Shown: piece by piece, positions 5,718 through 23,267 of the stretch | Layout: the number at the start of each line of letters is the position of its first letter | How positions within the stretch are numbered: the first letter of the stretch is position 1 | Source of the DNA: a virus | Direction: 5' to 3' (one strand) | Length of the DNA: 33,401 nucleotides | Virus record (IMG/VR): IMGVR_UViG_3300034121_000393 | Span: 1 to 33,401 of that record | Translations under genes and position numbers: made by a program | Notes under the pieces: model-generated | Told to the model about the DNA's origin: nothing | The model's input: the letters and a program-made list of their open reading frames with translations, nothing else | Databases searched by the model: none

Positions 5718-7013
5718 TTAAGCAGTTTCTAATGCAGCAATATCAGTTGCAAATGTACCTTTCACAAACGCAGTTCTGTCGTTGTTCTTGGTTACTAATG
5801 CACCTCTCCACTCTGCAATGATTGTACGCATATTCTTTGTCCAGTCATTACCATCTAACCCGATGTTAATCATTATACCTTGCTTTTGATATAAAACAGA
5901 CAAATTAAAGTTACCTACAAGATATGTACCAGCAGTTACTAATGTGCTACCAATCATCGGAACACCATCAAGTGTTAACTCCATACCAACATAAAGCAAT
6001 CTGTCAACATAACGCTTATCAGTTGCTGATACTTTCATTAACTTCAATGCTGCGATGTCTGAAGGATGCATCAATATTGCGTTAGGTGCTTCTTGATTAG
6101 CAATTGCAATTTGATTCATTGCTACAACTAAAACATCGGCACTATTAGCATTGTCAACTGTTCCTGCAAATGTACCAGCAGCAAACGCAGTTGCAACTGT
6201 TCTGATACCATTTAAGTTTGGTGCAGTTCCATTACCAGAGTAAGATGTGTTTTCAACATCTAACATTAACAAACGCATCAACTCATTTCTGATTTCGCTT
6301 TCGATAAAATCAATATCATCTAACATTTCAGTTGAAACCTTGATGAATGCAGTGCGCTTAACAACCGCTTGAGATGCAACTACTAAATCAAAATCAATTT
6401 GATTCTTTGTGCTTCCTTCTGTTGTACCACCAGCAGCACCATCTCTGTTTGCTTGGTAAACCCAAGAAATGATGTTACTTGCTGCTTGACCTTTTGCGAA
6501 TAAATCGATTAGTCTTGGTCTGCGTGTAGCAATTAAGTTTAAGCCTGCAATACGTTGTTCAACTGGCACATTACCACCGCTAATGTTAGTTGATTCTAAC
6601 ATATCACCAGCAGCCTTGAAAGAGAAACCAGCACCGTGAGCAGCAGATTTGTCAAGGTCTTTCAACTTTGTCAAGTTTGCTTTGTTCTCCTCTAATGCTT
6701 TTCTGATATCAGATGCTTGAGCAGTCAAAGAATTTGCTTGGTTATCTTTGTTTAACTTTTCAATTGCCAAACCATATTCTTTCAATGTTTTGTTCAATTG
6801 TACCATTTGCTCTTTTTGAGCAGTAGCAAGTTCTGATTTCAAAGATTCAATATCTTCTTTACTTGCGCTTTTAGATACTGCATCTTCTAATGCTTTTCTT
6901 GCTTCTTCGTTATACTCGTTGTATAACTTTGCCATTTCTTCTGCTTCTTGACTTGCGAAAGATATGGTGTTTAATCCTTTTGTTTCAAGGAATAATTCAA
7001 ATTTACTTTTCAT
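5718..7013 (-). CDS. Major capsid protein, HK97 fold
   Basis: 431 aa. Residues about 1-130 are a highly charged coiled coil, the delta/scaffold domain typical of HK97-type capsids. A hinge follows (Gly/Ala/Ser, about 123-150), where the maturation protease probably cuts. The remainder shows the HK97 layout: N-arm, a segment with KRTAFIKVSTEMLDD and an E-loop-like Gly/Ala/Thr patch, the spine helix region ELMRLLMLDVENTSYSGNG, and a P-domain/A-domain region ending with RGALVTKNNDRTAF. It sits immediately after the prohead protease, as in HK97. The call is strong on family; the cleavage site is inferred. Confidence 0.92.
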   Translation of the reverse strand: MKSKFELFLETKGLNTISFASQEAEEMAKLYNEYNEEARKALEDAVSKSASKEDIESLKSELATAQKEQMVQLNKTLKEYGLAIEKLNKDNQANSLTAQASDIRKALEENKANLTKLKDLDKSAAHGAGFSFKAAGDMLESTNISGGNVPVEQRIAGLNLIATRRPRLIDLFAKGQAASNIISWVYQANRDGAAGGTTEGSTKNQIDFDLVVASQAVVKRTAFIKVSTEMLDDIDFIESEIRNELMRLLMLDVENTSYSGNGTAPNLNGIRTVATAFAAGTFAGTVDNANSADVLVVAMNQIAIANQEAPNAILMHPSDIAALKLMKVSATDKRYVDRLLYVGMELTLDGVPMIGSTLVTAGTYLVGNFNLSVLYQKQGIMINIGLDGNDWTKNMRTIIAEWRGALVTKNNDRTAFVKGTFATDIAALETA

Positions 7014-7014
7014 T

Positions 7015-7857
7015 TTAAATGTTTTTTGTGAGATTAATAAAAAATTGTTTTTGTTTTTGTTTTTGTAGTGATAAATCGGCTACGGGTGTTTGAGTGTCAT
7101 TCAACGGCTCAATATTTTCTTTTGGTATGGTAACGCTCATTGTAGGTGTTGCATAGTTGCTGCCTTTTAAAACTGCGCTACCTTCAATTATTTTAGCTTC
7201 TGTTACTGCCCAAAAATATTCATCTTCTTTTAAATAGTCTTTATTCGCTACCATTGGGTAATACTTATCCCAGTTAGCTTTTTCTTCTGCAAATTGTTTT
7301 GATGTGGAATTAATGCAAAGATAAAGGTTGATATATCTCATCCCTACTGAATGTTCTTTTACCCAACCATTAATATACTGGTTGAACATAAATTCGTTCC
7401 TATCCTTGCTTATTTCAGCCTCAAATATCAATGCTTCAGTATCACCTTGTAAGTTGGGAAAGCCTAACTTATCCCAAGTCATTTTCTTGGTGCTTGCAAC
7501 GATGGTATCACTTATAACTTTATCGAATGCCATTCTATGCTCCTGCAATAAGTAGAATGATTTGGTTTCATTAAGTGACTTCTTCCAGATGCCTTGAATG
7601 TGGCAGTCATCGTGACTATCCACAATGTTAGTTGTATTGATTACCACTTTCGCAGTAATAACCTCAACCTCATCTGGCATATCAATGTCATCTATCATTG
7701 CTTTCGTTACACCATCTTTTTTATATTCAGTTGGCATAGAATAAGCAATACAATCAGCATACTTTGTAGCAGCCTTTTTTTCAGCAATGATGAGGTCTTT
7801 ATTCTTTTTCAAGAAAGCCCACTTCTCACTCTTATCATTGAATTTTGGTAACTTCAT
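7015..7857 (-). CDS. Prohead maturation protease (HK97-like, S78/U35 clan)
   Basis: 280 aa. This serine protease would process the capsid delta domain and the portal-associated scaffold. The likely catalytic His is H107 (LLQEHRM) and the nucleophile S170 (VKEHSVGMRY); acidic residues lie in the following strand around TEAKIIEGSAVLKGSN, the counterpart of the family's 'EvSlV' strand. The first 60 residues are a charged extension, longer than the classical family. It is placed between portal and major capsid, one base before the capsid ORF. The catalytic residue assignment is from motif resemblance. Confidence 0.8.
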   Translation of the reverse strand: MKLPKFNDKSEKWAFLKKNKDLIIAEKKAATKYADCIAYSMPTEYKKDGVTKAMIDDIDMPDEVEVITAKVVINTTNIVDSHDDCHIQGIWKKSLNETKSFYLLQEHRMAFDKVISDTIVASTKKMTWDKLGFPNLQGDTEALIFEAEISKDRNEFMFNQYINGWVKEHSVGMRYINLYLCINSTSKQFAEEKANWDKYYPMVANKDYLKEDEYFWAVTEAKIIEGSAVLKGSNYATPTMSVTIPKENIEPLNDTQTPVADLSLQKQKQKQFFINLTKNI

Positions 7858-21650: not shown

Positions 21651-22217
21651 ATGAAACCACACCACCAAATTATAACCTTTGCAGTCCTATGCTTACTGCT
21701 AATTATCGGTCTTAACTATTGCGCAAAGGACAAACCGAAGCCTATTCCATTCGACTACAAAACCGAAGCGGAACTAATAAAAAAACAATTCGGCATTGAG
21801 CAGGCTATTCTACTTAACCAGTTAGAAGCAGTTAACCGAAGACTACAAACTGCGAACAACGCAAAAGATAGCATTAGAAAGCGTGAAATATCTTTGACGA
21901 ATACTAACATAGCTTTGATGAAGAAGTTGCGTGATAGGTTGCCAAAAGAGTGTGACACAGTCTTTGTATTGTGTGATGAGATAATCAATGTTAAAGATTC
22001 AAGTTATGCAGCGTTATTTACTGCATTTCAACTTTGCGCTGATGCTTCAACTATTAAGGATTCTTTAATAGTTGGCTACAAAGCGGAAAACCTAACGGAT
22101 TCGTTACTTTTAAAAGTTAGTAAGCAAGAAACGAAACAACAAAGAAGAGGTAAAGTTGCAGCGTGGTGTGTTGGTGGGGCAATGTTTATTCTTTGGTTGT
22201 TTGTTGGATTGAAATAA
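21651..22217 (+). CDS. Spanin-like membrane protein (188 aa)
   Basis: 188 aa from the ATG at 21651; an in-frame TTG at 21615 lies inside the previous gene and is less likely. An N-terminal hydrophobic anchor (about residues 7-23, with Cys near its end: GLNYCAKDK), then a long alpha-helical coiled coil (about 35-90) and a second hydrophobic segment at the C-terminus (WCVGGAMFILWLFVG). Position after endolysin and holin candidates suggests an outer-membrane disrupting spanin, but the second membrane segment is not typical of Rz. Uncertain. Confidence 0.55.
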   Translation: MKPHHQIITFAVLCLLLIIGLNYCAKDKPKPIPFDYKTEAELIKKQFGIEQAILLNQLEAVNRRLQTANNAKDSIRKREISLTNTNIALMKKLRDRLPKECDTVFVLCDEIINVKDSSYAALFTAFQLCADASTIKDSLIVGYKAENLTDSLLLKVSKQETKQQRRGKVAAWCVGGAMFILWLFVGLK

Positions 22218-22230
22218 ATTATTACATTTG
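22200..22230 (+). promoter_or_regulatory. Full promoter upstream of the kissing-loop RNA and methyltransferase
   Basis: TTTG (22200-22203), 19 nt, TACATTTG (22223-22230): exact consensus and spacing. The -33 element lies in the last codons of the spanin-like gene. Transcription should start near 22235. Confidence 0.85.
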
Positions 22231-22233
22231 CAG

Positions 22234-22316
22234 CGTTGTGTAGGAGCAACGAAAAGAAATTTTAACAAAAGCCTTGACTTTAGCGACCTCCTACTCGCTA
22301 TCGTTGAGGTTTTTTA
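22234..22316 (+). ncRNA. Structured leader RNA with two hairpins and a 7-bp kissing loop
   Basis: Hairpin 1 is CGTTG/CAACG (22234-22238 with 22247-22251) with loop TGTAGGAG. Hairpin 2 is TAGCGA/TCGCTA (22281-22286 with 22295-22300) with loop CCTCCTAC. The loops are complementary over seven bases (GTAGGAG with CTCCTAC). An alternative ACCTC/GAGGT stem (22286-22290 with 22306-22310) runs into a T-tract at 22310-22315, terminator-like. The methyltransferase ATG follows at 22329. Loop 1 resembles a Shine-Dalgarno and loop 2 the 16S anti-Shine-Dalgarno. Not recognised as a known family. Confidence 0.7.
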
Positions 22317-22328
22317 ATTTAAAGAAAT

Positions 22329-23192
22329 ATGAATGTAGTATCATTATTTAATGGAATGGGTACTTTAAGACAAGCATTGCATAATTTAGGAGTAAAAGTT
22401 GATAGCTATTATTCAAGTGAAATTAAACCTTATGCTATTAAATTACAACAACATCATTTTCCAGATGTGATACAAGTTGGTGATATTAGAAATTGGAGAG
22501 AATGGGATATTGATTGGAGTAATATTGATTTTATAGGAAGCGGAAGTCCTTGCCAAAATTTAAGCAGTATTGGAAAACGTGAGGGAATAAATGCAGATAA
22601 TAGCGGTTTGTTTTGGATTTTTATTGAAATATTAGAACATTGTAAAAAGCTAAATTCAAATGTATTATTTCTTCAAGAAAATGTAGGTAGTGCAAGAAAA
22701 AAAGATATTGGTATAATGAGTAGAGCTTTGGGAGTTTATCCAGTTAGGATTAATAGTTCGTTAGTAACTGCTCAATTAAGAGATAGATATTATTGGAGTA
22801 ATATTAGAACAAAACAATCCTTGTTTGATATAGTTACTGATATTCCGCAACCTATTGACAGAAAAATTATGTATAAGGATATTATAACCAGTGGCACTGT
22901 TAATAGAGAAAAATCAAAATGTTTATTAGAAAGTATTTACCATTCATTTTGTTATAAAGATGAAAAATCAGAGGAAGCGCAAAAATATCTAATAAAAAAG
23001 GAAAAGTTTGGAACTATATTAATTTATGAAAATGATTACATTAGAACAGTTAATAAAATTGAAATGTGCAGATTACAAGGTTTCCCAGATAATTATTGCG
23101 ATATACTTACAACTGCAAAAGCAGGCAGCTTATTAGGAGATGGTTGGACATTACCAATTATAGAACATATTTTGTCATTTGCAAAGTTTTAG
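22329..23192 (+). CDS. DNA cytosine-C5 methyltransferase (orphan, phage type)
   Basis: 287 aa. Transfers a methyl group from SAM to cytosine C5. Motif I VSLFNGMGTLRQAL (4-17), motif IV GSGSPCQNLS (70-79, nucleophile C75), motif VI QENVGSA (116-122) and motif VIII AQLRDRYYW (148-156) are all present, followed by EMCRLQGFPDNY and SLLGDGWTLPIIEHIL near the C-terminus. The target-recognition region is short. No restriction endonuclease lies beside it, so it probably protects phage DNA from host restriction. AT-rich relative to neighbours and enclosed by promoter/U-tract modules on both sides, it resembles a moron acquired by transfer. Confidence 0.92.
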   Translation: MNVVSLFNGMGTLRQALHNLGVKVDSYYSSEIKPYAIKLQQHHFPDVIQVGDIRNWREWDIDWSNIDFIGSGSPCQNLSSIGKREGINADNSGLFWIFIEILEHCKKLNSNVLFLQENVGSARKKDIGIMSRALGVYPVRINSSLVTAQLRDRYYWSNIRTKQSLFDIVTDIPQPIDRKIMYKDIITSGTVNREKSKCLLESIYHSFCYKDEKSEEAQKYLIKKEKFGTILIYENDYIRTVNKIEMCRLQGFPDNYCDILTTAKAGSLLGDGWTLPIIEHILSFAKF

Positions 23193-23200
23193 TATCTTTG
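23171..23200 (+). promoter_or_regulatory. Promoter for the second short RNA, at the end of the methyltransferase gene
   Basis: TTTG (23171-23174), 18 nt, TATCTTTG (23193-23200). One base shorter than the usual spacing. It overlaps the last codons of the methyltransferase gene. Confidence 0.6.
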
Positions 23201-23203
23201 CGT

Positions 23204-23267
23204 TGTTCAATGTTAGTTAAGTTATTAGGTCGAAGCACTTGCAGAAATGTAGGTGCTTTGTTTTTTT
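23204..23267 (+). ncRNA. Short RNA ending in a strong terminator hairpin
   Basis: From the promoter above, about 60 nt leads to the stem CGAAGCAC/GTGCTTTG (23231-23238 with 23253-23260, 8 bp including one G-U) followed by seven T (23261-23267). No ORF fits between. Like the RNA at 22234 it begins with CGTTGT. It may be a free small RNA, or a leader attenuator for the gene starting at 23295. Confidence 0.5.
23231..23267 (+). terminator. Intrinsic terminator after the methyltransferase gene
   Basis: An 8-bp stem (CGAAGCAC/GTGCTTTG), loop about 14 nt, then T7. It ends both the methyltransferase transcript and the short RNA begun at about 23204. Confidence 0.8.

Follow-up and report, generated by a model that had tools for sequence, protein, structure and literature searches.

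What is the short stretch of DNA that separates a promoter from a cytosine methyltransferase gene in a phage of uncultured origin, and does its transcript control the gene behind it? The locus lies in a record of 33,401 nucleotides, the whole of which we call the window (IMG/VR record IMGVR_UViG_3300034121_000393, one strand). The window carries tailed-phage genes (terminase, portal, major head protein and primase), and its exonuclease gene has DNA-level similarity to Flavobacterium phages. The leader and its gene comprise the following parts.

22200-22203 (TTTG), then 19 nucleotides, then 22223-22230 (TACATTTG), + strand: Bacteroidota-type promoter, read from the sequence, with a predicted start site.
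22235-22250, + strand: 5' hairpin H1, from folds (22235-22238 with 22247-22250, extended by 22234-22251).
22240-22246, + strand: kissing arm 1, GUAGGAG, perfect complement of 22288-22294, with compensated alternatives in other members.
22251-22266, + strand: AU-rich linker of 16 nucleotides, single-stranded in the fold.
22267-22315, + strand: intrinsic terminator, from the fold, with lower stem 22267-22278/22303-22314.
22288-22294, + strand: kissing arm 2, CUCCUAC, within the terminator apical loop.
22329-23192, + strand: C5-cytosine DNA methyltransferase of 287 amino acids, from the ORF list (Pfam DNA_methylase, E-value 2.6e-28).

The original prediction, a leader RNA with two 8-nucleotide loops complementary over 7 nucleotides, holds at this place: 22240-22246 can pair with 22288-22294. 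H1 reads GUUG-UGUAGGAG-CAAC, UGUAGGAG being its 8-nucleotide loop, and the second loop, CCUCCUAC (8 nucleotides, 22287-22294), is the apical loop of the terminator, whose upper stem (22281-22286/22295-22300) stands on a 2x2 internal loop and whose T-run is T6 (22310-22315). The promoter expected ahead of the leader is present as well, as a TAnnTTTG motif of Bacteroidota type at 22223-22230; we take TTTG/TAnnTTTG to be the promoter consensus of this phylum. A sigma-70 scan of the window did not list the TACATTTG promoter, and a TAnnTTTG-type motif also lies directly before H1 in the listed relatives. For the 87-nucleotide RNA, the folding energy is -28.0 kcal/mol, whereas shuffled sequences average -15.5 (z -4.4), none of 200 being as good. 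The methyltransferase ATG at 22329 lies 13 nucleotides past the T-run, which leaves insufficient space for a further promoter.

Two related proposals fared less well. A competing terminator-like stem had been drawn between ACCTC and GAGGT, but the real terminator is one long hairpin (22267-22314), of which the second hairpin of that proposal is only the tip. Kissing and termination had also been presented as mutually exclusive states; since loop 2 is itself the apical loop of the terminator, the two can coexist and the exclusivity is not supported. We also considered an antiterminator formed by the H1 3' arm CAACGA with UCGUUG at 22301-22306. This pairing is perfect in the window and missing in several relatives (L006, L007, L003, L174), and we consider it incidental for that reason.

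Is the loop-loop pairing maintained in evolution? Within the close family of the window (about 27 phages), the loop pair is invariant, and a scan whose query comprised the linker end and lower stem (AACARAAGCCTTGAYT) but no loops recovered only close-family members with both loops intact. Across 19 relatives, 9 of the 18 terminator stem pairs have changed on both sides, the kissing pair being invariant in that set. More distant members came from other queries. The H1 hairpin alone retrieved phages with unrelated linkers and genes (L170, L174, L179) that nevertheless have CUCCUAC in the terminator loop, and a covariance model in which the loops were not paired detected, in the same phage records, second copies with jointly changed loops, GUGAGAG/CUCUCAC and GUCAGAG/CUCUGAC. 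The H1 stem covaries in the A3 subfamily, with both-side changes in all 4 of its 4 pairs. In the NUMOD/HNH subfamily, both-side changes affect 12 of 21 pairs (0 of 500 shuffles) and compensatory changes occur in all four helices, including 4 pairs of the kissing helix. Comparison with related phages, which had been proposed as one way to check the leader, has yielded the compensatory loop changes it looked for; judged from these alignments, the loop-loop pairing is kept up by compensation and is evolutionarily maintained.

Not every member has a neat 5' hairpin: in some primase leaders, the 5' arm sits in a larger loop or in a mostly unpaired 5' end. In one subclass (L054, L419, L421, L423, L452, L460 and L074, L360, L376), ACAAT... 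comes after the 5' arm, and the terminator stem contains an internal loop, UGAAAC / GUGGAU, which is conserved and may be a tandem G-A motif.

How general is this arrangement? A loose scanner, with no limits on promoter or GC, matched reversed sequence as often as real sequence and was dropped for this reason in favour of a strict one, which requires a promoter, a hairpin, a complementary terminator loop and a T-run. The strict scanner listed 13, 20 and 15 real matches (lists that include a few near-duplicates and doubtful rows) against 1 per reversed-sequence set of 1.0-2.4 Mb, with pairs that include GUCGUAG, GUCGUCG, GGACUAG, CAUCCAC, GCUCAAC and UGGUCAGA. To avoid circularity, leaders were then defined solely by a promoter, a terminator and a nearby start codon, complementarity not being required. 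Among 111 distinct leaders so defined, 85 have at least 7 nucleotides of complementarity between the 5' segment and the apical loop, and 95 of the 111 do when the apical loop is counted with 2 flanking nucleotides, for about 42 distinct sequences (here and below, leader counts depend on the loci fetched and are not population frequencies). When partners were permuted, with one leader per sequence, 1% paired. Among loci retrieved through protein homology or because they belong to named phages, 52 of 77 reach at least 7 nucleotides and 65 of 77 at least 6. The complementarity is far above chance, because it recurs with different sequences in dozens of leaders.

These leaders have the architecture of an attenuator: a promoter, a T-run terminator hairpin and a gene start directly 3' of it, with no promoter between. 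About 10-25 nucleotides separate leader and gene start in nearly every case, and the genes belong to a limited set of functions: C5 and N4/N6 methyltransferases, HNH and NUMOD-HNH nucleases, BT4734-like/PriCT primases, probable replication initiators and unknowns. The predicted kissing-loop leader before the methyltransferase stands, now tied to a terminator, but it is not specific to methyltransferase genes. Position before replication genes holds for some members (primase, replication initiators, elemoF), while the window copy precedes the methyltransferase. Three named phages carry the element, FCL-2 before gp54, 11b before PHG11b_62, and elemoF before an operon with an annotated replication initiation protein and a primase/helicase; no convincing element was found in lillamy, 6H, Leef_1, lotta8-1 and BT-TP2, and Blast of the leader against named phages gave nothing useful.

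In cellular genomes, 400 kb from two Bacteroidota contained zero leaders of this geometry, and the pattern TTGATAAAGN8CTTTTGAT had one match in 395 genomes. Model R1 gave few strong matches in GTDB Bacteroidia (L209/L312, L322, L410), the remaining ones being weak and unconfirmed by the strict scan. A 12.6-kb contig from a cellular genome bin (L524) is prophage-like, with terminase and replicative helicase genes, and has three kissing leaders, no two of which share a pair.

A protein search that started from the gene upstream of the leader provided 66 loci in which the fate of the element could be followed. In about a third of them, the same RNA follows the upstream gene, before differing cargo genes (several C5-methyltransferases, other methyltransferase-like proteins, an ATPase and unknowns); most of the others have neither RNA nor cargo, the upstream gene being followed directly by the next promoter/terminator unit. 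Two related loci, L106 and L129, lack a cargo gene; directly behind the upstream gene, they keep the terminator and its CUCCUAC loop but have a destroyed H1 loop. This loss of the H1 loop where cargo is missing, one event only, links the kissing pair to the downstream gene in cis.

The region has several features of its own. Window positions 22218-23192 and loci L103-L168 outline a cargo hot spot between a lysis-type gene and a second promoter-terminator unit, where phages are either empty or have a kissing leader with one of many genes, often DNA methyltransferases. The second unit (window 23190-23266) begins at the methyltransferase stop codon with TATCTTTG and continues for ~60 nucleotides to a hairpin with a GAAA-containing loop and T7; it is kept in most of the 66 relatives, with compensated changes in its terminator stem, and has no kissing pair. 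In L007, the first gene after the element (minus strand, about 6990-7020 and below) encodes a cargo protein, MSIKQKYSVKSIDNFQCKDWLIHKHYAKRIPSISYAFGLF..., which we presume may be a DNA-modification protein of Mom type.

Is the identity of the loop pair itself important? An identical 20-nucleotide linker and identical H1 stem occur with two pairs, GUAGGAG (L174, L202) and CUGGAAG (L404, L405), and a genome locus from the model search described above (L322) combines the same 20-nucleotide linker with yet another pair, GUCGAAG. Between the primase leaders L452 and L460, 4 of 16 kissing-arm positions differ, all compensated, against 0 of 58 in the flanks (p 0.0016); other pairwise comparisons, which are not independent, go in the same direction with weaker p values. 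Near-identical leaders, then, differ mainly in their loops, and the differences are compensated. As the flanks may be under constraint, fast loop turnover alone does not prove diversifying selection. Where a contig has two or three elements, each has its own pair (L170, L179, L341, L405, L461, L191/L139, G007, G028, L524). Fast matched turnover and differing pairs within one phage suggest that pair specificity matters, and compensatory drift without any trans function could also account for the turnover.

We propose that the leader is quite probably a transcription attenuator, that is, the conditional intrinsic terminator of a phage leader RNA family. At the sequence level, we have established the architecture, the pairing, the covariation and the location ahead of the start codon; the sequence of events is our model. 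RNA polymerase would start just after TACATTTG and H1 would fold first, followed by the emerging terminator hairpin with its loop complementary to that of H1; the two loops would dock (7-8 bp) as the terminator closes. The majority of transcripts would be expected to stop at the T-run, giving a compact RNA of ~80-85 nucleotides, so that the gene would be expressed only from read-through, be it the methyltransferase here or primases, replication initiators and HNH nucleases elsewhere. The median of 17 nucleotides between T-run and ATG, too short for a further promoter, leaves the gene without one behind the terminator and makes read-through the natural control point. We infer that docking tunes termination in cis. 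Against this attenuator reading, the terminator is predicted to be stable enough alone.

More speculatively, the released RNA, with both its loops, might pair with nascent leaders of the same specificity and thereby restrain its own gene in a dosage- or superinfection-dependent way. Such a brake in trans would account for the private loop pair of each leader, and these private pairs suggest, by analogy with the P4 CI RNA, self-recognition in trans. Bacteroidota phages may use a private kissing-loop code: a terminated RNA would recognise leaders that have its own pair and no others, which would amount to dosage control or superinfection immunity by RNA, with orthogonal specificities numbering in the dozens and several per phage; we put this forward tentatively, as one possibility.

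Could kissing instead promote read-through? A docked H1 might hinder completion of the terminator or modify the polymerase in the manner of HK022 put, the kissed form being the one that reads through. H1 and the terminator tip can indeed dock before the lower stem is complete, and lower and upper stem are commonly separated by an internal loop. However, the linker (16 nucleotides here) looks long enough, on a rough estimate, for kissing and the full terminator to form together, and put RNA is not known to have such a kissing pair. We hold a cis-acting antiterminator of this kind to be rather unlikely, although worth keeping in mind. It is still less plausible that the ~85-nucleotide product is a stand-alone small RNA, its loops serving as seeds for host or phage targets and its internal kissing keeping it inactive or stable, with the gene behind it incidental. 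Promoter and terminator do closely flank the RNA, and its loops diversify as seeds might. Yet the gene start is within the short distance given above in nearly all cases, with limited functions, H1 was lost too where the gene is absent (again, one event), and the sole constant is complementarity to the RNA's own second loop.

The arms also form an inverted repeat in the DNA, for instance an operator for a dimeric regulator, but they lie in the 5' segment or H1 loop and in the terminator apical loop, the stems covary as RNA and the spacing varies with linker hairpins, so that this reading is very improbable. Weakest of all is the original suggestion that the RNA touches ribosomes, loop 1 acting as a Shine-Dalgarno sequence and loop 2 as an anti-Shine-Dalgarno mimic: the resemblance of GUAGGAG/CUCCUAC is that of one sequence among ~42, most of them not SD-like, homologous leaders keep the pairing with GUCGUAG/CUACGAC, CAUCCAC/GUGGAUG, CUGGAAG/CUUCCAG and others rather than conserve an SD-like loop, no suitably placed start codon follows loop 1, Bacteroidota make little use of SD in general, and we give the idea hardly any credence.

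The rule that the 5' loop is the reverse complement of the terminator apical loop is simple and has predictive value for finding candidate attenuators in a group where phage gene control is little known, and the RNA itself is present both in uncultured metagenome phages and in the cultured FCL-2, 11b and elemoF. The matched-set loop changes, and the differing copies in one phage, may supply a natural set of orthogonal terminator switches and may allow one to test directly whether RNA-based immunity groups exist in phages.

The building blocks of this RNA are known: intrinsic terminators, attenuation, kissing loops and phage antisense RNAs. Their combination appears to be a previously undescribed class of structured phage RNA: no Rfam family scored above its gathering threshold, the weak E-value matches being due to chance, and a literature search, with most subscription papers outside its reach, found no description of this architecture. 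Kissing-loop riboswitches of the purine class also couple intramolecular loop-loop docking to a terminator, as is generally known, whereas the present leaders have no conserved ligand-like core and their loop sequences vary freely if complementary. HK022 put RNA, which suppresses distant terminators via the polymerase, is likewise a small phage leader with hairpins affecting downstream terminators; it is not known to have a complementary loop pair. The C4 antisense RNA of phages P1/N15 acts, after processing, on translation of the downstream gene, and is again a phage RNA with loops complementary to its own transcript; the leader described here differs in having no Rfam match. In plasmid copy control, the antisense RNAs of attenuation in pT181 and pIP501 and of RNA I/RNA II loop kissing in ColE1 come from a separate antisense gene. 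There, too, loop kissing decides termination or primer fate and loop changes create specificities, but here both loops are in one RNA, and no antisense gene has so far come to light. The immunity of phage P4 relies on CI RNA, a leader-encoded antisense RNA that terminates the replication operon prematurely (PMC4825925). With our elements it shares within-leader complementarity and control by premature termination (predicted here), and with some of them, though not the window copy, the place of the leader upstream of phage replication genes. The CI RNA arises by processing of the leader and has seqA and seqC as its pairing partners, whereas here a 5' loop faces the terminator apical loop within a unit of ~85 nucleotides that occurs in dozens of specificities, also before methyltransferase and HNH genes, and whose action in trans is putative.
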